A stretch of DNA of 64,000 nucleotides, from assembly GCF_000378145.1 (NCBI RefSeq), contig NZ_KB899288.1:1-64000 (forward strand), written 5' to 3'. A model generated the notes under the pieces. The model worked only from the letters and a program-made list of their open reading frames with translations. It searched no databases and was not told the DNA's origin. The stretch comes from Saccharibacillus kuerlensis DSM 22868. GTDB taxonomy: Bacteria > Bacillota > Bacilli > Paenibacillales > Paenibacillaceae. Positions 1-13,014 of the stretch are shown here, piece by piece; the stretch's first letter is position 1, and each line of letters begins with the position of its first letter. The position numbers and the translations under genes are program-made.

Positions 1-152
1 TGCAAAGCCGCTTCAGCCAAAAACAGAAACAAATCGTAACCGGTGAACTTCCGGGCCACATCGACATAGCCGATTTCCGCGAGCAACTCTTCGATTTGCT
101 CGCGGGGAAATACAGTTTGCAGAACACTCGAGAATGTCGTAGACTTTGTCAT
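1..152 (-). CDS. IS4-type transposase, N-terminal fragment (runs off the window)
   Basis: Reading the minus strand from an ATG at 152 gives an open frame of 50 codons that continues past the left edge. It starts MTKSTTFSSVLQTVFPREQI and continues with a helix-rich segment containing EELLAEIGYVDVARKFTGYD. This resembles the N-terminal domain (DUF4372 type) of IS4-family transposases common in Paenibacillaceae. A GAGGCGACC ribosome site lies just upstream. The catalytic DDE part is outside the window, so it cannot be said whether the element is intact. The call rests on remembered family resemblance only. Confidence 0.6.
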   Translation of the reverse strand, partial: MTKSTTFSSVLQTVFPREQIEELLAEIGYVDVARKFTGYDLFLFLAEAAL

Positions 153-170
153 GAGGTCGCCTCGTTTCGA

Positions 171-190
171 TGTTTGTAGGGGTACAAACA
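171..190. repeat. Perfect 8-bp inverted repeat upstream of the transposase start
   Basis: TGTTTGTA and TACAAACA flank a GGGG loop. It lies 18 bases upstream of the transposase ATG and could be a hairpin in the transposase 5' leader or part of the insertion sequence end. No clear terminal inverted repeat or target duplication can be defined because the other end is missing. Confidence 0.6.
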
Positions 191-252
191 GCTTAACAAA
201 CAGGCGTCCTTTTTGCTATTTTTTGGTTAATCAACAGGCCTAGCATAACAGC

Positions 253-337: not shown

Positions 338-438
338 ACATATCGCATCGCTCGCCTTTTAAAGCCTTCCACATTCCCTTGTTCATTCTGGATTTTGGTT
401 GTACAGTATGAACATCAACAGCCATGGGAGGTTGCAGA

Positions 439-2349
439 GTGCTTTTCGGGAAATTAAAAGGGAGCGGGGGCCGAGCCAGTCTTCAAACCAAATTTCTGCT
501 GGCGTTTGCGGTGCTGCTGCTGATCGTACTGGGCATTTTTGCGGTCTATGTGAATCAAATGGTGGTTCGGCCGCTTCGGGACAGAACGGAAAACGAAATG
601 CGGCAGACTGCAGCGAAAATCAGCGATCAGCTCAATCTATACGTCGATAGTCAGAATCAGCTTTCGCAGCGTATTTTATCAAGCCAGGATATTTTTACGT
701 TAATGCCGTCCGGCGACTACTCGCGTTTGAGTGTAGAAGGACTGAGCCGAAGCCGCAAGCTGAGAGAAATTATGTTCCAGTCGATTGGGCCCAGCATGAA
801 TATTGAAGATGTGGCAATCTATGATCTGCGCGGCGCTCTGCTCACGACTTTTATCAGTGCTGCGGGCAATCCGTCGTCACTGCTGCCTTTTTTGGAAGAA
901 AGCGAACAAAATACAAGTTGGATCGAAAACGGTTACGCTCTGTACCGGACAAGTCCGGATCGAGTCTTTTTCGTTCGATCGATCATCAATCAGAATGGCA
1001 AAATCTTCGGCTATATGGCCATTCAGCTGCAGCAGGACATGTTAGACCGTTCCGCTTCCGTTGTCAGTTCGGGCAGTGAAGTGTACGTGCTCGACCCGGA
1101 CCGGCAGCCCATCTACGCATCGGGAAATCTGAAAAGTGCAGACCTTGCGGGCTTCTCCATGCCGACTTCTGAAAAGGACTCGAGCGGCGTTTATCTCGAC
1201 AGCCAGGGCGATTATGTCGCTTATTACCGATCGAACGAAACAGGATGGACGACCTACACCATAACGCCGAAAAAGGTAGTGCTCGGTCCGGTCAATTCGG
1301 TCACGAACGTCTCCATGCTGCTGATTGCTTCGCTTCTTCTCTTTTCCGCCGCCTATATTTACTTCTCCGCCCGCAACTTTCTGCTGCCGATTCGCAGATT
1401 GCGAAGCCAGATTCTGCACATCAATTACAGCAATATGGACACTCGGGTCGTGACCCCGTCGTCGAACAACGAACTGCTGCTGCTGAACGAAGCATTTCAA
1501 GGACTGCTGGATCGGCTTCAGGTATCGATCGAGCGGGAAAAGCTGGCTGTGCATGAAGAAGCGGTTGCCCGAAACTCGGCACTGCAGGCGCAGATCGCAC
1601 CACATTTTATTCATAATACCCTGTATCTGATCAGCATTGCCGCACAGGAAGGGAAAAATGCGGTCGTATCGGAAATGTGCAAAAATCTCTCGGACAGTCT
1701 GCGCTATATTGTGTCTTCGCCGTATCAGCATGTCAGTCTGACGCAAGAGCTGGAGCACACCAAGCATTATTTGACGCTGCTGCAGCATAATTACGAGGAC
1801 GATCTGGAATGGACGATAGACGAGGATCGGGCGTTCGACAGTATTCGGCTGCCGCGCCTTGTCATTCAGCCTTTTGTGGAAAACTGTATTGAACACGCAT
1901 TCAAGCAGGCGGATACGCCGTGGCGAATTGAAATCCGGGTGAAGCTGTACAACGGACTGTGGGCGCTGGAAATTCGGGACAATGGAGACGGATTCGATTC
2001 GGATACGATTGCTGCTGTATTGGGCCGTATTCGTACAGCTGAAGTTACGGAAAAAGAGGAGTATAAAGATTCGGCTAACGACAAAACAAATGCAATAGAT
2101 GCAATAGATATAGTAGATGCAATAGATGGAGTAGACGAAATAAGCGGAATAGACGATAGAAACGGAAGCCGCAGCGAATCTGCAAAAGAAAGCGAAACGG
2201 GAATCGGTGGCATGGGTATTGTCAATACGGTCAGACGTTTGCAGCTCATGTACAAAAACCGGCTGTTTTTCAATATGTACAACCATAACGACGACGGTGG
2301 GGGAGCGGCTATTCAAATTATCGGGTCGCTAACGGAGGACTTTTATTGA
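439..2349 (+). CDS. YesM-type sensor histidine kinase
   Basis: Membrane sensor kinase of about 636 residues, expected to phosphorylate the response regulator encoded next. After a short basic N-terminus comes a membrane segment (KFLLAFAVLLLIVLGIFAVY), an extracellular sensing region of about 240 residues, and a second membrane segment (VSMLLIASLLLFSAAYIYF). A HAMP-like linker, the His-kinase box LQAQIAPHFIHNTL (phospho-acceptor His), an N-box (RLVIQPFVENCIEHAF), DNGDGFD and a C-terminal GGMGIVN follow. The GTG at 439 is preferred because GGGAGG ends 7 bases before it; an in-frame ATG at 424 has no ribosome site. The ATP lid carries an unusual repeat-encoded insertion (see 2092-2154). YesM/YesN pairs usually sit beside sugar ABC transporters; none is seen here. 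Confidence 0.93.
   Translation: MLFGKLKGSGGRASLQTKFLLAFAVLLLIVLGIFAVYVNQMVVRPLRDRTENEMRQTAAKISDQLNLYVDSQNQLSQRILSSQDIFTLMPSGDYSRLSVEGLSRSRKLREIMFQSIGPSMNIEDVAIYDLRGALLTTFISAAGNPSSLLPFLEESEQNTSWIENGYALYRTSPDRVFFVRSIINQNGKIFGYMAIQLQQDMLDRSASVVSSGSEVYVLDPDRQPIYASGNLKSADLAGFSMPTSEKDSSGVYLDSQGDYVAYYRSNETGWTTYTITPKKVVLGPVNSVTNVSMLLIASLLLFSAAYIYFSARNFLLPIRRLRSQILHINYSNMDTRVVTPSSNNELLLLNEAFQGLLDRLQVSIEREKLAVHEEAVARNSALQAQIAPHFIHNTLYLISIAAQEGKNAVVSEMCKNLSDSLRYIVSSPYQHVSLTQELEHTKHYLTLLQHNYEDDLEWTIDEDRAFDSIRLPRLVIQPFVENCIEHAFKQADTPWRIEIRVKLYNGLWALEIRDNGDGFDSDTIAAVLGRIRTAEVTEKEEYKDSANDKTNAIDAIDIVDAIDGVDEISGIDDRNGSRSESAKESETGIGGMGIVNTVRRLQLMYKNRLFFNMYNHNDDGGGAAIQIIGSLTEDFY
2092..2154 (+). repeat. 9-bp tandem repeat inside the kinase ATP-lid coding region
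   Basis: Seven in-frame 9-base units related to GCAATAGAT encode AID, AID, IVD, AID, GVD, EIS, GID. Three units are identical and the rest differ by a few bases. Because the unit is a multiple of three, copy-number change would alter protein length without breaking the frame. The repeat lies between the DNGDGFD motif and the GGMGIVN motif, where the ATP lid is normally short. Confidence 0.85.
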
Positions 2350-2388: not shown

Positions 2389-2487
2389 AGTTTAGCCAAC
2401 TAAGTCCCACGATATGTATTGACAGTTGATCGACCGCTTGGAGTAGGGGAGTCTGTGTTCGAATGGAACAAGAAAGGAGACGACGGC

Positions 2488-4086
2488 ATGTACAACATTC
2501 TGATCGCGGAGGACAGCAAGCCGATCCTGCGCAATATCCAGTCGTTGATTCAATCGGCCAATCTTCCGGTGAAGGTTACGGCTGCTGCGTCCAACGGCGT
2601 AGAGGCGCTTGTGCATCTGCGGGAGCAGCACATCGATATCCTGCTGACGGACATTCGCATGCCAAAGCTGGATGGCTTGGGACTGATCGAAGAAGCCAAG
2701 CATTTGAACCCTCGGCTGCAAACCGTGCTGATCAGCGGCTACAGCGACTTCGAATATGCGCGCCGGGCGTTGAATCTGCAGGCATTCGACTACCTGCTCA
2801 AGCCCGTGGAGCAGGAACAGCTGACGGAAGTGCTGACCCGTCTGCTGGAACAGCTGCGTCTGCAGGAGGAGAGCGACCGGAGGCTGCTGGAAGGCGTTGT
2901 CGCGCCGGAACTGCTGGCGCATATGACGCTGGACGCCGAGCTGCTGACCGGCGAGCATGCGCTTCTGCTGCTGCGCCGCCGGCCGTTCTCGCCGCAGTCT
3001 GACGGATGGACGCCGTCAGACGTACAGGCCGCGCTTGCTCCGGCCTGCGGCGCTTTGCGCTGCCGGGTGCTGCCAACGCTGCACCCGCAGGGACTCCTCG
3101 CGTTCGCGGACGCGAGGGTGCTGACCGCCCACGCTTCGCCGGAGGCGTGGGCGGGCGCGGCGCGCAGCGCGCTTGCGGAGCGCGGCATTCATGCTGCCGC
3201 GCTGGGCTGTCCGCAGCCGGTGGAGCTGCGGGATCTTGCCGGCTTGTACAGCCGGCTGGAACGCGCCATGCGCGAGCGGCTGACCGTGTCGGGCAGCCTG
3301 GAGCCCTGCGCCGGCGAGCCGGAGGACGGCAGGCCGCGCTGCGGCGAAGCCGAGAAGCTGGCGGCGCAGGCGCAGCTCGCGGAGCTGCTCGCCCAGCGGC
3401 AGAAGGAGCGATTCCTTCTGCTGCTGCGGCAGAAACTGCCGCTGTGGCTGAGCGGCGGCGCGAAGCTCGCCGAATTGGAACGGCTGGTCCGTTTTCTGGC
3501 GGAGGAGTTCGGTGCTGCGGTGCTGCCGGATGGCGGCGATTACGCCGACCCATCCAACAGCCTAGGCAGCTCAAACAATCGGGACAATCTGCATAACCTG
3601 AACAACCCAAACAATTCGGCCAGCGCGTTGGACACGGAGCTCCATAGTCTGTTCGCCGTGCCCAGTCCGGAAGCTTTTGCCGAGGTGCTTCACGATTGGT
3701 GTGCCGCCAGATTCGATCCGCTGCAGGAATCGGGCCGAAGAGGGGGCGAGGAGTTGTTTGAGCAGCTCGATCGCTATTTGCGGCAAAATCTGTACGCTCA
3801 GCTCTCCATGCCGGATGCGGCGCAGCAGTTTCATGTCAGCCCGTCGTACATCAGTCGGATTGTAAAACGGTATACGGGGCGCACATTTGTCCATCATTAT
3901 ATGGATCTGAAGATCTGCGAAGCACGGCGGCTGCTGGCTTCCGATCCCGACGTGAGGGTCAAGCATATCGCGGAAGCGCTTGGTTTCGGCGATCCGCATT
4001 ATTTTTCCAAAGTGTTCAAGGAATACGCCGGATGCAGTCCGTCGGAGTATCGGGACACGTTGGCGATCGAATCTGAACGTATATAA
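2488..4086 (+). CDS. YesN-type response regulator with AraC DNA-binding domain
   Basis: Cytoplasmic response regulator of 532 residues, the likely partner of the upstream kinase. The receiver domain (about 1-120) shows the acidic pair E8/D9, phospho-acceptor D55 (LLTDIRMPKLDG), S83 and K105 (LLKP). The last 100 residues are a double helix-turn-helix of AraC type (SPSYISRIVKRYTG, then IAEALGFGDPHYFSKVFKEY). The middle is long and GC-rich, with an Asn-rich low-complexity linker near 3560-3620. The ATG at 2488 is chosen because AAAGGAGA lies 7 bases upstream and the receiver fold begins at once; a TTG 69 bases earlier has no such site. The target genes are not evident. Confidence 0.93.
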   Translation: MYNILIAEDSKPILRNIQSLIQSANLPVKVTAAASNGVEALVHLREQHIDILLTDIRMPKLDGLGLIEEAKHLNPRLQTVLISGYSDFEYARRALNLQAFDYLLKPVEQEQLTEVLTRLLEQLRLQEESDRRLLEGVVAPELLAHMTLDAELLTGEHALLLLRRRPFSPQSDGWTPSDVQAALAPACGALRCRVLPTLHPQGLLAFADARVLTAHASPEAWAGAARSALAERGIHAAALGCPQPVELRDLAGLYSRLERAMRERLTVSGSLEPCAGEPEDGRPRCGEAEKLAAQAQLAELLAQRQKERFLLLLRQKLPLWLSGGAKLAELERLVRFLAEEFGAAVLPDGGDYADPSNSLGSSNNRDNLHNLNNPNNSASALDTELHSLFAVPSPEAFAEVLHDWCAARFDPLQESGRRGGEELFEQLDRYLRQNLYAQLSMPDAAQQFHVSPSYISRIVKRYTGRTFVHHYMDLKICEARRLLASDPDVRVKHIAEALGFGDPHYFSKVFKEYAGCSPSEYRDTLAIESERI

Positions 4087-4288
4087 AAGCACATGAAAGT
4101 AGATAAAATGCATATAAAAGTCATATAAAAAGCACACAAATTATAGTGAAATCATCGCTGCTTCCAGCTGCGGCAGCTCCTACCGAAAAGGGTAATAAGC
4201 AGGAGAGAAAGCATATGCCGCAGAAGCTTGTGCTGTAGGAACTATACTGAGCCGGGCTTTTTCCTAAAAAAGACAAAGGAGCCTTTCC

Positions 4289-5359
4289 ATGACCCTTTCG
4301 ATCAACGCCCCAAATCATCCGCTAAATCTGCTGGGCAATGAGCCGGATTCCGAAGAATCGACAGATGTGGACTTGGCTTTTTTTCTGGTGCGCAAACAGA
4401 AAGAGGCAGACCGGTATTACCGGGCCAAAGCGTTCTCGATTTCGGAAGAGCTGAGTCACTGGCTGAAGCGGCAGCTGATCAAGGAAATCCGGGCGATGCA
4501 GATCAAGGAAGATGACGGATCGCGGCGCTTTGTCGTCAGCGAATATCATCTTGAAGTTCAGAAGCACGGCCGGTTGGCGAAACTGACTCTGGGCGAGGAA
4601 ATCGGTTTGCCATATGAGCGCAAGAATGCCCTTCTCGGTGCTCTGGCCAATCCGGATGGTCTGCTTGACGTGCAGGAGACGGACTTTCAGGTGATACAAG
4701 CGGATGTTGACGGAGAGCGTTTGTATTTCTTTTTCTACCGCAAACCTAAGCAGAGCGCATCACGAAAAAAGTGGGCGCTCGGACGCTCCGGCGAATTGGA
4801 CTTTGCTTCCGACGAATTGATCGAATTGGGCGGAAAGATCGACTTTATGCTGGTGGGGGATGAGCTGTACATTTCCAACCTGCTTTCTTTTGAAAATGTG
4901 TTCGATTACCGCGATCATATTGTCAGCGCCAGAGATCGGAATCTGGAGACTATTACAAATATGCCCTTTTTCGCGATCGACGAGTTGGACAAAGAACGAT
5001 TCAAAAGGGACTGCAGCGCCATTTTCCATACTCGGACGTTGGCACAATTGGGAGCGGAACAGCTGGAGACATTGGAAGAAAACTTTAAAGATCGCTGCAG
5101 CGAGCTCCGACAAATTCGCAATGGTGTTCCATCGAGTGCCGAGCGGGCAGAAGAATATCGCCGTACCTATGCACCCCTCTGGGAGCTGTACGATTTTCTC
5201 GATCTGGATCACGAAGTGATTATGTATCCCGAAGGCAGTCGGCCGACCGCTCTGCTGCACTTTTTTGCGGACAAGATCGTACAGTCGTTCCTGACGAAAG
5301 AGTTCGGCTTGGCCGATTCCATCGATAGTGCCGGAGATCGACAGGAAGATAACGCCTAG
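4289..5359 (+). CDS. kwaB: KwaB-like DUF4868 protein (Kiwa-type anti-phage system)
   Basis: A 356-residue soluble protein whose C-terminal half (about 185-345) has the pattern remembered for DUF4868. It includes an ELYISNLLSFENVFDYRDHI strand/helix start, a following PFFAIDELDKERF segment, and an ending of ALLHFFADKIVQSFLTKEF type. DUF4868 is the defining domain of KwaB, the effector subunit of the Kiwa defence system (Doron 2018 family of discoveries), reported to act with the membrane protein KwaA. The next gene, 17 bases on, encodes a four-helix membrane protein resembling KwaA. AAAGGAG lies 7 bases before the ATG. The usual Kiwa order is kwaA then kwaB; here it is reversed. The assignment is recognition of family pattern plus neighbour and was not tested by a profile search. 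Confidence 0.62.
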   Translation: MTLSINAPNHPLNLLGNEPDSEESTDVDLAFFLVRKQKEADRYYRAKAFSISEELSHWLKRQLIKEIRAMQIKEDDGSRRFVVSEYHLEVQKHGRLAKLTLGEEIGLPYERKNALLGALANPDGLLDVQETDFQVIQADVDGERLYFFFYRKPKQSASRKKWALGRSGELDFASDELIELGGKIDFMLVGDELYISNLLSFENVFDYRDHIVSARDRNLETITNMPFFAIDELDKERFKRDCSAIFHTRTLAQLGAEQLETLEENFKDRCSELRQIRNGVPSSAERAEEYRRTYAPLWELYDFLDLDHEVIMYPEGSRPTALLHFFADKIVQSFLTKEFGLADSIDSAGDRQEDNA

Positions 5360-5376
5360 AGAGGAGAATCCGGACC

Positions 5377-6033
5377 ATGTGGAGCAAAAAAGAACCGATC
5401 ATCCTCTGGACGACCGCTTACGCACCGCTGTTCATGCTGATGATCGGCGGTTTTTTGTATCGGAACAATCTGCTTCCGGCGTGGCTTGGGCGAGAATCCC
5501 TAAATGGGCTTCTTGGTGGCCGAATGTGGATTGCGGAAGTTGTTTTCCTGCTGGTTGTGCTGGGAGCTTCGCTGCTGCTGTACCGTCTGGTCATCGTCTG
5601 GCTGCTGCGTGATACGGAGAAAAAGGTGGTTTCGCAGCGCGGTGGACGGATGTATGCGGTGCGGCGTTTCGAAAAACTGCCGGCGAGCGACTATACTTTC
5701 TTCCTCATGACGCTGCTGCTTCCTCGGTTGGCACTCGACTATTCGTCCATCACCAACTTTGCCGTGTCGCTGCTGATGATCGTGTTCATTATCGCCGTGT
5801 TCGTAAAAACGGATACGATTGCCACCTGCCCGCTGTTTTTCGTGTCGGGATTTCAGGTGTTCAAAGGAACAATCTCGGCATACAGCCTCGAAGAGGAAGC
5901 GGCGGACAAAGGGCTGCGGCAGGAAGTTGTGATGCTGGTGAGGGAGAAGGATCTGGATCTTGGAGCGAAATATAGAGGCGAGCCGCTGACAGGGAAGATG
6001 TATGTGATCAGTCGCAGTAATAAGGAAAACTGA
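5377..6033 (+). CDS. kwaA: KwaA-like four-helix membrane protein (Kiwa-type anti-phage system)
   Basis: A 218-residue membrane protein with four hydrophobic segments: APLFMLMIGGFLY, AEVVFLLVVLGASLLLYRL, a segment from FFLMTLLLPRLAL, and FAVSLLMIVFIIAVF. They are followed by a soluble tail of about 70 residues. The stretch from the third helix (LLLPRLALDYSS) to KTDTIATCPLFFVSGFQVFK has the layout remembered for KwaA, where a DxSS turn, a helix and an xTDxxxxxPxxxxxGFxVFK motif end the membrane part. It follows the KwaB-like gene by 17 bases with a GAGAGGAG site, so the two are likely one transcript. KwaA is the membrane sensor that tethers KwaB in the known system. Another small membrane family cannot be excluded. 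Confidence 0.6.
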   Translation: MWSKKEPIILWTTAYAPLFMLMIGGFLYRNNLLPAWLGRESLNGLLGGRMWIAEVVFLLVVLGASLLLYRLVIVWLLRDTEKKVVSQRGGRMYAVRRFEKLPASDYTFFLMTLLLPRLALDYSSITNFAVSLLMIVFIIAVFVKTDTIATCPLFFVSGFQVFKGTISAYSLEEEAADKGLRQEVVMLVREKDLDLGAKYRGEPLTGKMYVISRSNKEN

Positions 6034-6534: not shown

Positions 6535-9500
6535 TTACTTGGAAAAGTCCATCACATCCAGCGCTCGTCCCAGCATTGCCGCACTCTCGGCACGGGTTGC
6601 ATGGCGATCCGGCAGGAAGCGGCCGATGGAATCACCCTGTACTAATCCGAGACTGCCCAGCAAATTGACGGACTCCGCAGACCAGGCCGGAATACGATCT
6701 GTGTCCGTGAAGGCTGCGGACGAAGTACCGGACTGACTGTAGCCGGCGAAGTTCAGGGCGCGTGCTACCATAGCTGCCATCTCCTGACGTGTCACTTGGG
6801 CGTTGGGACGGAAAGTGCCGTCCGTGTATCCGCCAATGAGACCGGCTTCTGCCGCTGCACTTACCGAACCGGCATACCAGCCCGAAGCTTGAACGTCTTC
6901 ATAGGCAGCTGGAGCGGAGACGGAAGTCGTAAGTCCCAGCATACGAACCAGCATGGCAGTGAACTCGGCGCGGGTAACGGCTGTACCTGGACTGAATTTG
7001 CTGCTGCTTACACCGTCTACGATGCCTTTGGCAGCCAGAGCGGTGATTTCGGCGTTGGCCCAATGGGCTTTCGTATCGGTAAAGGACTTGTTCTGCTGCG
7101 CTGCAACATAGGTGCTGTTGGTGCGGCTGTAGACAATCAATTCACTGCCGTTTCGTTTGAACGGAACCGGAGACAGGGTCATCGTTCCGTTAGCCGCCGT
7201 TTCGAGTCTCAGTACGGCTGTAGATCCGGTCGCTGCGCCGGACAGCGGAATCGTACGTTTTACGTACGTATCGAACTTCCGCAGTTCGCGGCTTGTACCG
7301 GAAGCATCGACCAGTGCAAGCTCAAAGTCGACAGCCTGCAGGGCGTTCCAGCCAAGCGTCTCCACCTGGCTCAGCGCCTGAGAGTTGCTCGAGATCGTGA
7401 CTTGAAGGCCACTTGTTCCTGCAGCGTTTGCGGCAGCAGGCAGTCCGAGCTTATTAAGCGGTACGCTGTAACCGCCGTTCGGCGTCTCGATCGACAGCAC
7501 TCGGACCCCTCCGGATACTGCGGTGCGGAGTGCTTCCGGAGTCAAGGACATCTGCATGCGATCGGCATTTTCTCCGCTGCCAAGAGACAGTCTGAGACTA
7601 AGCATATCGGTACCGCTTGTTTGCAGAGCTTGACGAATAGCATTTGCTTCAAGCTGGGCTTCGGCAACTCGGATTCCACCGTTTACGACAACGGCAGGAG
7701 TCATTTCGATCCGTCCCGCTGTGCCGGTTGGAGTGCCCGGTACGGTGCCTTGGTTTCCTGGAACGGTGCCTGGAACTTGACCGGAAGACGTTCCGCCTGC
7801 AGAAGGTGCCGATCCGCTGTTACCGCCACCGGAAACCGGAGGAGTCTGTGCAGGCGGTGTAGTCGGAGTTCCTGAGCCGGGAGAGCCCGAGCCAGGGTTT
7901 CCAGGATTACCTGGTTGTTCCGTTCCTGGTGTTCCGGGAGGCGTCTTAAGGCTCAGATCCAGCTGCACGAGCAGCGGATCATGGTCGCTGACCCGGCCGC
8001 TGCCATCCATGAAGTCGGCGTTGATATGCACAATATCCAGCTTCGCCGCATTCGTCAGATTGCGTCCGACAAGAATATGGTCAAGGGTCTGCGAATTGCC
8101 TTCATAGACATAGGAGTATCGTTCGTTCTCCGGCAGCTCGTCGACCAAGTTGATCAGCTCTTTGCCGCGTAAAATGCTCAGTGCGTTGGAGAACTGGAAA
8201 TCGTTCAGGTCGCCCAATACAACAACATTGGCGTCCGGATCGTTCGTCTGAATCTGCTGTACAAATCCATTGACGACAGCGGCAATCTTGGCACGCTGAA
8301 CTTCGCTTTTCAGTTCAAATGGTTGAATACCGCCGAACGGAGCGCCGTCTCCCAGCTTGGAATTGAAATGGTTGCCGATGACGACCACTTTCTCCCCTTT
8401 GAATTCAAACTCGGCAGCGAGCGGTTTTCTCGAACTTCTGAAAATCTCGTTCTGCGGTTCGATGCGGCCCGGATTGAGGGTCAGACCGTTTTCGTCATAG
8501 CTGACGGCATCCGTGCTTTCGCCTTTAGGTTTTTCCGTCAGGGTTACCCGCTCAGGATTGTACAGATAGCCGACACGGATATTGCCGCCCGGAGAACCGC
8601 CGTCCCGGTTATTTTCCGGTTCGATGTCCGTAAATTTGTACGAAGGACCGCCCGCATCTTCGATCGCTTTGATCAGCACGCCGTAGCTTGCAGAAGCATC
8701 AGTTACGCCGTCGTCGATCGTGCCGCTGCCATCCTGCACTTCGAGCAGAGCGAGGATGTCCGGCGACTGCAGGTTGTGTACAATCGCTTCACCGATCTCG
8801 CCGATCCGCTTGCCGGCAGTCGGGCTGAAGTTTTCCAAGTTGAAAGAAGCAATATTCAGCTTGTCTTCTTCCGGAGTCAGATGAGTAACGGCACGTTCCA
8901 GATCACCCGGGACAACAGCCGGAAGCTCTTCTGGCAGGATTTTGTAGTTGCTGAAGTTGTAGCTCATCACGCCGATTACCGGTTCTGCAAAATGATCGCC
9001 GGTCTTCACCATTTCTTTCGGCTTTTTATCGATCAACAGACGCTGCGGATTAAGACCTCTCTCGGTCAGCAGCAGACCGCCGGCAGGCGTTCTTACTTCA
9101 TCCGCATCCGGCCCGTTGTCTACCAATACCGGCAGTTCATAAGAATAAGGTCCGATAATTTCGGCATCGTTCAACTGAATACGCATGCTCTCCAGACTTT
9201 CGAAAAAGTCCATACCGTTAGCTTCGGAATCGAACTCTTCGAGTGTCCCGGTCTTGATATTCCCAGTCGGCATAATGCGTCCGTCTTTGCCCAATATAAT
9301 CGGTTTTGGCAGTTCGACATTTTGCTCCAGCACCCGGATATCCGAAGCGACTGACGGAACGACCTCCGTCGTAGTCAGGTCAACCGGATTACTGGTGTAA
9401 GTGAGCTCGGTGTACTCTTTGATCGTTCCGCTGATGCTGACTCGATCGCCGGGCTTCACGCCGTGGCTTTTGAAATAAACAGCGATCGCTTCCGATGTGG

Positions 9501-11181
9501 CATCGTTATCGTCAACCAGATCGTCCTGCTCCTGAATGTAGAAAGTACTTCCGCTGACGAAGATTACGATTCCTTCCACATCTTTGACGCTCAGGCCTTC
9601 ATAGGGCGAACGATGAGCTCCGCCCTGAATATCGTGGATGCGAAGCTGGTCGAGCTCTTTCAGTACTTGATACTGGAAAGAAAAGATTTCGCTGCGCTGG
9701 TCGCCCTGTACCGCGATCGCTTTGACCGTCGTATCCTCGCTCAAGGTCAGCGGTGCTTCGTAGAGGTTCGAATTTTCATCCGGGTCGCTTCCATCTGTCG
9801 TATAACGAATGACTGCGCCTTCTGCCGGTACATGCAGAGAGATCGGCGTACTGCGTGTGACGGTACCCGAGTTTGGGGTGGCTAGCACGGACATCTCGTT
9901 TTCGACAACATCGAGGCCGTTTCTTGGAATGAGCTGAATGGCCTGGTTGTAGCGGTTCATTACACCGACGATTCGGCTGTACATTTTGCCGGTTTGAACA
10001 AGTCCGTTTTTAGAATAGATAATAAACTCGCCTTGGTCGTCTTTGGCCGTGAAGCTGCTCGACGAGCTGACCGATTGTACATCTACGCCTTCAACTTCAA
10101 CCAACATGCCCTCATATTTGGCGGAGCCAGCTGGTGTAAAGTCGCTCGAAGTCAGTTTTAACGGAGCAGGAACACCGGCAGAGGCTTATGTGACTGTAAG
10201 GTCGGATGCGTTTGCATTAATCTGCAGCAGTTCACGGTAAAGACCAAGCTTTCCGGAAACTTCGATCACGTCTCCCGCCTGTACGGCAGGGGCGCCGGAA
10301 GCTCTGACCACAATGCCGGCTTCGCTGTCCTGCACGTAGATGTTCAGTGCGCTGCCGGATTCCTCAACATAAGTGACGGTTCCTTCTACCCATACACTTT
10401 GTCCTTCTGCGATTTGGCGAGCTTCGTAGATCGAAGTTTTTTGCAGCGTGGTATAAGAAAATTCGGAGATTTGGCTGCGTTCCAGACCTTGTGCTTCCGC
10501 ATAGGCGCGGATAGAAGTGGGACCTTCAATCAGAATTGGATCGGTATAAGGAATCGGAGCGTTCCCGTTGATCTCGACTTGAATAGAAGCATCCGGCGTT
10601 CCCGTACGCAATGTAATCGCGGTTCCGCTCTTGACCGTTCCGGACGATATATCTGCTTGTACCGGCATCGTCTGTGTAGGAGCGGCAGGCGTGTGACGTT
10701 CAATCGAAGTAGGATTTTTGAGTCCGGTTTGCGAGTAGTAAGCTTCAAGAGAGCCGGTTACGACAATGCTCTGTCCGCGAAGTTCAGGGTGATCTTTCAG
10801 GTTATATCCGCTGCGCAGAGCTCCCGACGGAAGCTGAACCGCAATCGTCTTGCTGCGATCGGTTTCCTGCGGAGAATCGGCAATCAGAATATTTGTGTCA
10901 ACCGCATAAGCACCGTCAGCTTCTGGCTCTAATTTGTGAGAGCTCGCACTGATTACAACACCAATTATGTATCCTGATACCGAAGCGACTTCCTTATTAT
11001 TGTTCAGCAGCTGCGCATCCGCCACCGATAAAGGAGCGCTTGCCTGCTGTATATCGAACTGTGCTTCGGCATAAGCTGATCTAGGCTTTACGGTTCCCGG
11101 AAGCGATCCCGAGACCAGCAAGGTTCCTGCGGTAAAAGCCGTCAGAAGCTTGCGGAGTTTATGTTTTTCCCAAAATGTCAT
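6535..11181 (-). pseudogene. SLH-anchored extracellular nuclease, interrupted by an in-frame TAA
   Basis: One reading frame of about 1548 codons broken by TAA at 10188-10186 (codon 332). The upstream part (ATG 11181, GGAGGAATT site) has a signal peptide ending near AYAEAQ and an OB-fold/DUF6359-type region. Downstream the same frame continues without shift: A-S-A-G-V-P-A-P follows the stop. It holds a chitobiase-like C-terminal module (IRYTTDGSDPDENSNLYEAP), more OB-like strands, an endonuclease/exonuclease/phosphatase domain (LNIASFNLENF, VVVLGDLNDFQFSN, SDHDPLL; codons about 770-1070), a Pro/Gly/Ser linker, and three SLH repeats at the end (FTDTKAHWAN, YEDVQASGWYAG, FTDTDRIPAWS). An intact version would be a secreted nuclease held on the cell wall. 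A single base change (TCA to TAA) would explain the break. A sequencing error or a functional split are the alternatives. Confidence 0.85.
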
Positions 11182-11578: not shown

Positions 11579-11655
11579 GTAAATTAATTGTAAGTGAAGA
11601 ATTAAATGATAAGACTACATAGAGACGGCGGTCTTGATGCGAAAGAGGTGTGGAG

Positions 11656-13014
11656 ATGGAATTGACAATGACGCTGCGTTCCGAAATTGAAAAAGGAATT
11701 GCGGATATGGGAATGAATTTTTCGGAATTCGGCGAATGGTCGGGAATTAACCGTGGCATTTTCAGTGCGATATTGAACAGCAATCCTCCCAAACCGATTT
11801 CGCTTAATCAGATGGAACGGATCGGCCGAGCGCTTGGACATGAGGAAGGGTGGATGTTCGAGCGATATATCGAAGAATGTTTTTACGATGGCCGGCCCAA
11901 TAGGCGTCGCGTCGAACCATTCCTCATCCGCTGCGCCGAGCTAGGCCGGGTCGAATGCATTCAGGCGGTACTGTCGCGTCTGCTGGAAGATCTGCGGCAG
12001 CTCGATATGATCTTCGAAATTGCAGAAGCTTTGTACGAGGGAGGTAAAGTTGAAGAATCAGTCGTCTTTTACCGCTGCCTGGTACAGAACGAAAAGTATC
12101 ATCAATCGGAAAGATTGGCGGTGAGTCATTATCGACTATTTCGAGCAGCGCTGGGAGAAGATAATGAGCAGAACCTGAGAGCTGCCATTGAATTTGAGCC
12201 GTTTTGCGAGAGGCTGCCGGATCATCATCGGTTGGACGGATTGATGAAATTGGTGAACGTATATTTGTCTTTGGACAAAAGACCAGAAGCGAAAAAGTAT
12301 TCGCATCTACTTTTTGACTTTTCACAAATCATTTATCTTAACGAAGAACAGCGATTGAAGCGTGGGTTAGACCAAAATCGAATTCCAAGCGAATATCCAT
12401 TGGTCGTTTATTATGGTTATGGCTTTTTGGCTATGCAAAATATCATGCTCCATGAAGAAAATTACGAGAAAGCAAAAAGTTACATAGCCGGCTATGCGGA
12501 TTTGGATTGGTTCGCCGATTTGGATGAGCAGTCGCGCGTTGAAGTCGATAAGTTCAAATTTTTTGCAAAAATTAATACGATGCAAGTCCGTTTGTTAGAA
12601 GGGGAGCAAGAAGTTCTGTCTGAATGTGTACAGTTTATCGAAGAAAATCCATCTGAACTGCTGGTAACACTTTTAATTATTGTGGAATCTGCAAATAAGC
12701 ATCATTATACGATTGACCACATTTTGAACAAGTTTTCTGATCCTCTTGAACAACTGCTTCGTGAAAATTCCGTTTATAGTCAAGAGAGTAATTACAATAG
12801 GTATACAAGTCTTTGTTATGAAAGTGCATTATACTTTTGGAATAAAGAAAAATATAAACTTTGTTTAAATTATCTATTGCTTGGTTTGGAAATGGCGATT
12901 AATATAAACAATAAAGACATGTTTATGAAATATGTCCCATTATTTGAAAAGCTTCGAAGTTTAACGGATGAACGCGAACAAAAACAGTACGAGAATTTGA
13001 TGAGGAGGCTATAA
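11656..13014 (+). CDS. RRNPP-type (AloR/AimR-like) peptide-sensing regulator
   Basis: A 452-residue protein with an N-terminal helix-turn-helix (about 5-55: LRSEIEKGIADMG, NFSEFGEWSGINRGIFSAIL) followed by an all-helical array of TPR-like repeats (NRRRVEPFLIRCAELGRVEC, FEIAEALYEGGKVEESVVFY and onward). The segment RRxxEPFLxRCAELGxxxCI is what I remember from the AimR-like Alo regulators described in Paenibacillus polymyxa. The gene overlaps the ribosome site of a tiny secreted peptide gene that begins one base after its stop, the classic receptor/pro-peptide arrangement. The ATG at 11656 is preferred for the AGAGG site 7 bases upstream; GTG 11650 and ATG 11668 are alternatives. The last third is clearly more AT-rich than neighbouring genes, which suggests transfer. 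Regulated genes are unknown. Confidence 0.8.
   Translation: MELTMTLRSEIEKGIADMGMNFSEFGEWSGINRGIFSAILNSNPPKPISLNQMERIGRALGHEEGWMFERYIEECFYDGRPNRRRVEPFLIRCAELGRVECIQAVLSRLLEDLRQLDMIFEIAEALYEGGKVEESVVFYRCLVQNEKYHQSERLAVSHYRLFRAALGEDNEQNLRAAIEFEPFCERLPDHHRLDGLMKLVNVYLSLDKRPEAKKYSHLLFDFSQIIYLNEEQRLKRGLDQNRIPSEYPLVVYYGYGFLAMQNIMLHEENYEKAKSYIAGYADLDWFADLDEQSRVEVDKFKFFAKINTMQVRLLEGEQEVLSECVQFIEENPSELLVTLLIIVESANKHHYTIDHILNKFSDPLEQLLRENSVYSQESNYNRYTSLCYESALYFWNKEKYKLCLNYLLLGLEMAININNKDMFMKYVPLFEKLRSLTDEREQKQYENLMRRL

Follow-up and report, generated by a model that had tools for sequence, protein, structure and literature searches.

A probable, diverged Kiwa defence system in Saccharibacillus kuerlensis DSM 22868

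The prototype Kiwa system of Escherichia coli has the gene order kwaA-kwaB. According to a review, KwaA forms tetramers in the inner membrane together with KwaB dimers and senses infection there, and KwaB binds the injected DNA without cleavage and blocks replication and late transcription (PMC12904381). A second paper agrees with this mechanism in outline (PMC13190303). A RecBCD-dependent Kiwa pathway is cited from a preprint in a third paper (PMC11514479). A table in the same paper lists, for Streptococcus thermophilus 90730, 'Kiwa (kwaB, kwaA) 0688, 0689, 673224-674776' (PMC11514479); because the ORF numbers ascend and the complement mark used elsewhere in the table is absent, kwaB is read here as the first gene. 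This system, when cloned, gave 5-log protection against sk1 and 4-log protection against c2, and the effect reported in that text for streptococcal phages is about 1 log (PMC11514479). In a literature search covering few subscription papers, no statement was found on the Kiwa branch described below.

The window analyzed here is a stretch of 64,000 nucleotides from Saccharibacillus kuerlensis DSM 22868 (contig NZ_KB899288.1, positions 1 to 64,000, forward strand). It contains two adjacent, co-directional genes, as in Kiwa, with a gap of 17 bases, in agreement with an earlier sequence-only reading, and each gene is preceded by a Shine-Dalgarno-like sequence (Table 1). Motifs resembling AAAGGAG are found at the same place before kwaB in most of the relatives compared; a scan for promoter patterns at the pair yielded nothing usable. 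Judging from profile matches and predicted structures, this pair is probably a Kiwa defence system belonging to a diverged branch, the named members of which belong to Bacillales, a reading to which we assign a probability of about 85%.

Table 1. Features of the kwaB-kwaA locus and its boundaries (window coordinates).
Feature	Position	Strand	Evidence
Left boundary: sensor histidine kinase (dCache-HAMP-His_kinase), outside the system	424..2349	+	Pfam; conserved flank
Left boundary: AraC-type response regulator, outside the system	2419..4086	+	Pfam; conserved flank
Shine-Dalgarno-like AAAGGAG before kwaB	4275..4281	+	sequence
kwaB-like gene, 356 aa	4289..5359	+	Pfam PF16162 above cut-off, PADLOC, Foldseek, hhalign
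KwaB (DUF4868) Pfam domain, residues 146-267	4724..5089	+	Pfam PF16162
Shine-Dalgarno-like AGAGGAG before kwaA	5360..5366	+	sequence
kwaA-like gene, 218-aa membrane protein	5377..6033	+	NCBIfam, PADLOC, Foldseek, hhalign
KwaA signature stretch KTDTIATCPLFFVSGFQVFK, residues 144-163	5806..5865	+	alignments
Right boundary: 454-aa protein, outside the system, no Pfam match	11650..13014	+	conserved flank

The DUF4868 pattern noticed earlier in the first gene was confirmed. Its product matches PF16162 with 34.9 bits (E 2e-8; cut-off 26.3), a profile with no match in any of the 14 control genomes, and also matches the PADLOC KwaB profile (E 3e-9); PADLOC matches are given here as hmmscan E-values, without the model-specific thresholds of PADLOC. 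No solved KwaB was found by a sequence-profile search of the PDB with this protein. An AlphaFold model, built from a 16-row alignment with a mean pLDDT of 76.9, was compared with the PDB by Foldseek, and all six matches at E <= 0.001 are KwaB chains. The best of these is 9mtn_B (E 1.3e-7), and the identity across the significant matches is 14-16%; the KwaB fold is thus the only one recovered, with low TM-scores (0.37-0.41 by query length, rmsd 6.3-13.4 Å). Profile-profile alignment with 13 other KwaB proteins by hhalign reached 98.5% and runs nearly end to end (columns 25-345). The extra N-terminal region of about 180 residues proposed earlier was rejected: the match to PF16162 begins at residue 146, that to the best PADLOC KwaB profile at residue 24 (position 12 of the profile), and the alignment with other KwaB proteins covers residues 25-345. 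Since the profile-profile alignment spans these columns, the region preceding the Pfam domain is an ordinary KwaB N-terminal domain.

The second gene product has no match in Pfam. It is matched by the NCBIfam KwaA model (43.2 bits, E 3.7e-11) and by PADLOC KwaA (best E 4.1e-8), in line with the KwaA-like membrane protein and tail motif described before; a sequence search against the PDB aligned a solved KwaA with the KTDTIATCPLFFVSGFQVFK stretch, at an E-value (0.071) short of significance. The four helices ascribed to this protein are a fair description with a caveat, namely that three segments are strongly hydrophobic (residues 8-26, 55-73, and 125-143) and another helix is found at 103-118 in the AlphaFold model (16-row alignment, mean pLDDT 76.0). 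All four Foldseek matches of this model in the PDB at E <= 0.001 are KwaA chains, the best being 9mrx_A (E 3.3e-5), with an identity of 13-15% and TM-scores of 0.44-0.55 by query length. The predicted KwaA fold is accordingly combined with the hydrophobic segments of an integral membrane protein. By hhalign, the match to 13 other KwaA proteins reached 98.3%, again nearly end to end (columns 8-215).

The individual sequence scores are weak, as they would be for two unrelated genes that match the profiles by chance. Such a coincidence is very unlikely, because the same answer came from two fold searches made independently and from two profile-profile alignments, and because both genes are always adjacent. 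The branch is called diverged because both proteins miss the NCBIfam equivalog cut-offs widely: KwaB has 26.1 bits for NF041623 (cut-off 200) and KwaA has 43.2 bits for NF041622 (cut-off 100), so neither is filed as an equivalog. Solved Kiwa proteins (PDB 9mrx, 9mrg, 9mrr, 9mtn, and 9nyu) resemble the window pair in combining a membrane KwaA with a DUF4868 KwaB and share their folds according to Foldseek, but the identity to the window proteins is only 13-16% in the significant matches. What is new is a branch of a known system and no new kind of system; the family was rightly named from the raw sequence.

In total, 98 genomes, including that of S. kuerlensis, were searched, and a KwaB match was found in 17 and a KwaA match in 16 of them. 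The additional KwaB match, in G049, is weak (E 2.8e-4) and is not accompanied by a KwaA match. In each of the 16 genomes with both genes, these are adjacent, with kwaB first and 2-49 bases between the genes as called. Within the genus group, the pair is present in 12 of 16 genomes and missing from G001, G002, G005, and G014. A pattern-based scan of the genomes of 84,980 species revealed 23 loci, many of them in genomes already present in the 98-genome set. They belong to Saccharibacillus, Paenibacillus, Sediminibacillus, Neobacillus, Halolactibacillus, Jeotgalibacillus, Fictibacillus, and Planococcus. The order is kwaB-kwaA at all 22 loci for which the downstream side is covered; the contig of L072 ends at the locus, and two of the loci, L069 and L070, are identical copies. 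The latter belong to a 17-kb stretch that occurs twice, without differences, on a 158-kb Jeotgalibacillus contig, the two copies being about 83 kb apart; their neighbours look ParA-like by eye, and this is possibly a plasmid that was assembled twice.

The sequence-only reading had treated the order kwaB-kwaA as a reversal and as a possible sign of a diverged subtype. Among 398 Bacilli genomes, PF16162 matches were found in 15 genomes at 17 places. A pair was detected at 16 Bacilli places, with the order kwaB-kwaA at 15 of them and kwaA-kwaB at one (L073); no pair was seen at L114, a Bacilli place below the PF16162 cut-off. Ten of the 16 pairs belong to the clade of the window; of the six outside this clade, five have kwaB first, and two of these five share a genome. 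Among 398 Bacillota genomes, the loci outside Bacilli include three with kwaA-kwaB (L074, L076, and L078) and one with kwaB-kwaA (L075, where KwaB is split in two frames); at L079 and L080, both below the cut-off, no pair was seen. Eight of the nine plasmid records found were included, a second Emticicia plasmid being left out. Both plasmid loci from Bacilli (L095 and L096) are kwaB-kwaA, all five from other phyla with a pair (L092, L093, L094, L097, and L099) are kwaA-kwaB, and no KwaA was seen at L098. Taken with the published table for S. thermophilus 90730, whose Kiwa resembles that of the window in its Bacilli host and in kwaB standing first as listed there, these counts mean that the order is usual in sampled Bacilli and that a working kwaB-kwaA system is already in print. 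Gene order was thus rejected as evidence for a new subtype, and its supposed novelty did not hold.

Several loci gathered for this comparison have features of their own. In the Bartonella plasmid locus (L099 1827-3211), the kwaA-kwaB pair lies between type I restriction specificity and restriction genes, and its kwaA carries no annotation in the plasmid record. At L078 (60-1112), the protein encoded before a diverged KwaB is KwaA-like and is longer at its N-terminus by about 135 residues. In the ORFs at L079 and L080 (536-550 aa), the KwaB domain is matched weakly, with about 22 bits and below the cut-off, and no KwaA was found beside them; a short stretch in a neighbour at L079 weakly matches HerA-type profiles. 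The KwaA proteins of L073, L076, L078, and L093-L096 also match the PADLOC candidate family PDC-M39A (E 5.9e-5 to 1.7e-9), matches that point to a relative of KwaA in this candidate system.

In quick trees, the proteins of the window fall into a clade with a long stem, in which every locus has the order kwaB-kwaA. This clade comprises 28 of 44 rows in the KwaB tree (SH-aLRT 95) and 29 of 45 rows in the KwaA tree (SH-aLRT 99). The trees were built without the KwaB of L075 (two frames), L072 (split, at a contig end), the clade members L062 and L065, which were not added, the loci with no pair (L017, L079, L080, L098, and L114), and rows from repeated genomes (L050-L059, L061, L063, L064, L066, L070, L077, L081, L105, L107, L108, and L111). 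A second kwaB-kwaA group has seven rows: L095, L096, L100-L103, and L113. It includes the plasmid-borne Kiwa pairs of Lacticaseibacillus paracasei and Paenibacillus crassostreae (L095 and L096), which resemble the window locus in gene order and in their Bacilli origin but differ in their strong PADLOC KwaB scores (8e-99 and 9e-109), in their shorter proteins, and in their position outside the window clade in both trees. As to one or two origins of the order kwaB-kwaA, both trees need two changes of order, and a single kwaB-kwaA clade was not rejected by the AU test (p 0.465 for KwaB and 0.427 for KwaA, with long-branch warnings). Compared with nine kwaA-kwaB examples taken from plasmid, Bacilli, and Bacillota loci, the window branch has the order kwaB-kwaA and its proteins tend to be longer. 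For rows trimmed to the profile hits and with overlapping ranges, the median length of KwaB is 348.5 aa in the window clade vs. 309 aa in other rows and 317 aa in the nine kwaA-kwaB rows, and that of KwaA is 219 aa vs. 181 and 182 aa, respectively.

The kinase and the response regulator to the left of the pair had been called orphans. These genes are found together in all nine Saccharibacillus-type genomes, so the description was not confirmed. On the right, the gene for the 454-aa protein is followed by genes for three secreted-looking proteins and thrS. Nine Saccharibacillus-type genomes have these flanks, and in eight of them the pair is located between the kinase-regulator genes and this block. 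The right flank is incomplete in some of them: in G009, the 454-aa gene is missing but the secreted proteins and thrS are present, the stretch compared in G003 contains no more of the block than a secreted-protein gene, and the 454-aa protein of G013 has only 48% identity. In G002, the remaining genome, about 17 kb separate the flanks and the pair is absent. Because the site is common to eight of nine genomes, a recent insertion of the pair in the S. kuerlensis genome was rejected. In the window itself, a secreted S-layer-anchored nuclease with DUF6359, OB-fold, endonuclease/exonuclease/phosphatase, and SLH parts occupies positions 6535-11181 on the minus strand, as two ORFs with one in-frame stop near 10186.

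Genes for other defence systems were found at the same site. Wadjet III and TIR are present at the sites of G002, G003, and G008. In addition, the site of G002 contains a remnant of a PDC-S37/Hhe-type helicase, that of G003 such a helicase and a fragment of a restriction subunit, and that of G008 the helicase, Zorya I, and genes of two type I restriction systems. The site of G009 has type I-C cas genes together with CRISPR arrays, that of G013 the helicase, and that of G006 five degenerate CRISPR-like repeats. Selected ORFs from the G002, G008, G009, and G013 sites were scanned with PADLOC, G003 was judged by similarity to those, and repeats were searched for at the sites of G006 and G009. A search with 11 queries revealed no other system at the sites of G000, G006, G011, and G015, nor at those of the pair in G004, G007, G010, and G012; G004, G010, and G012 share a different site for the pair, and G007 has yet another. 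In G008 (L034 82-9857, L086, L087, L088), the distance from the end of the Zorya I operon to the Kiwa pair downstream of it is about 1.3 kb, and both lie in a hotspot of about 55 kb.

By its gene content, the space between the flanks is a defence hotspot. The sequence-only reading had placed the pair in accessory defence DNA on account of an insertion-sequence fragment and orphan regulators. Neither reason was upheld, and the defence context itself is supported by the hotspot in related genomes, so that profiles, folds, hhalign, and hotspot neighbours alike agree with a Kiwa pair that is diverged and lies in accessory defence DNA. The ORF taken for the fragment (window 3-215, minus strand) has no Pfam match at E <= 0.01; lying at the contig edge, and scanned with Pfam alone, it may be a truncated transposase. 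The core syntenic position in all relatives that would have told against the same reading applies by half: eight of nine flank-holding genomes share the position, but this position is a hotspot and four of 16 genus-group genomes have no pair.

Both genes are under purifying selection, with dN/dS values of about 0.02-0.18 in six genome pairs. Between distant genomes, the identity is 70-80% for KwaA, 61-68% for KwaB, and 76-79% for the flanking kinase (among seven genomes, with two close pairs and the exceptional G013 values set aside). In G013, KwaB is 87-89% identical to that of G006 and G015 (L036 8104-9156, L035, and L037; KwaA 80-84%), whereas its kinase is only 78% identical, and allele exchange is therefore likely. 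A role other than defence could likewise account for long-term persistence at one site, with an old Kiwa pair kept as a membrane-DNA complex for a cell function such as the control of envelope stress or competence. This domestication is consistent with the site shared by eight of nine genomes with flanks, with low dN/dS, and with a KwaA identity near that of the kinase. We nevertheless consider it improbable, since the pair lies in a defence hotspot, G002 lacks it in spite of having the flanks, KwaB diverges faster than the kinase, and members of the clade occur in phage-like contigs.

Three such contigs from IMG/VR hold clade members (L081, L082, and L083). Genes for terminase, portal, and major head proteins are located downstream in L081, which is identical to the Sediminibacillus locus L060, and in L083; in L082, an integrase gene is found on one side and terminase and portal genes on the other. 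This proximity to integrase or packaging genes is what would be expected if the pair were a prophage superinfection-exclusion cassette captured by the chromosome, with the same proteins directed against relatives of the donor prophages. However, Pfam revealed no phage-type family among seven neighbour proteins in the window, and tblastn with the window KwaB found no match at E <= 1e-3 in 50,697 phage records. The captured cassette is thus an unlikely origin, and its odds overlap those of the main Kiwa explanation, because it is a narrower version of it. The plasmid records likewise gave no tblastn match to the window KwaB at E <= 1e-3, and nothing relevant was found in the literature on Saccharibacillus phages.

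Under the Kiwa reading, and by homology with the E. coli system, KwaA oligomers in the membrane would sense a disturbance of the envelope on phage attachment or injection. KwaA-bound KwaB dimers would then bind the incoming DNA, and DNA-bound KwaB may stop phage replication and late transcription. AddA is present in the genome (1230.3 bits with neighbours in frame, cut-off 707.65), and a search for RecB gave nothing above the cut-off, the best score being 144.1 bits vs. 696.05 bits, at the AddA gene. Therefore, the RecBCD-dependent step cannot apply unchanged. Possibly, though we regard this as doubtful, the branch represents a functionally distinct Kiwa subtype of AddAB-using Gram-positives, with longer KwaA and KwaB, a fixed kwaB-kwaA order, and a RecBCD-independent mechanism at the DNA stage.

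The branch escapes strict annotation models, and its order, kwaB-kwaA, is the usual one in sampled Bacilli. If the Kiwa assignment is right, the pair would offer a Gram-positive system for asking which parts of Kiwa are general: membrane sensing, DNA binding, and the link to RecBCD. In the Saccharibacillus-type chromosomal hotspot, Kiwa would be the most persistent resident among the systems looked for.
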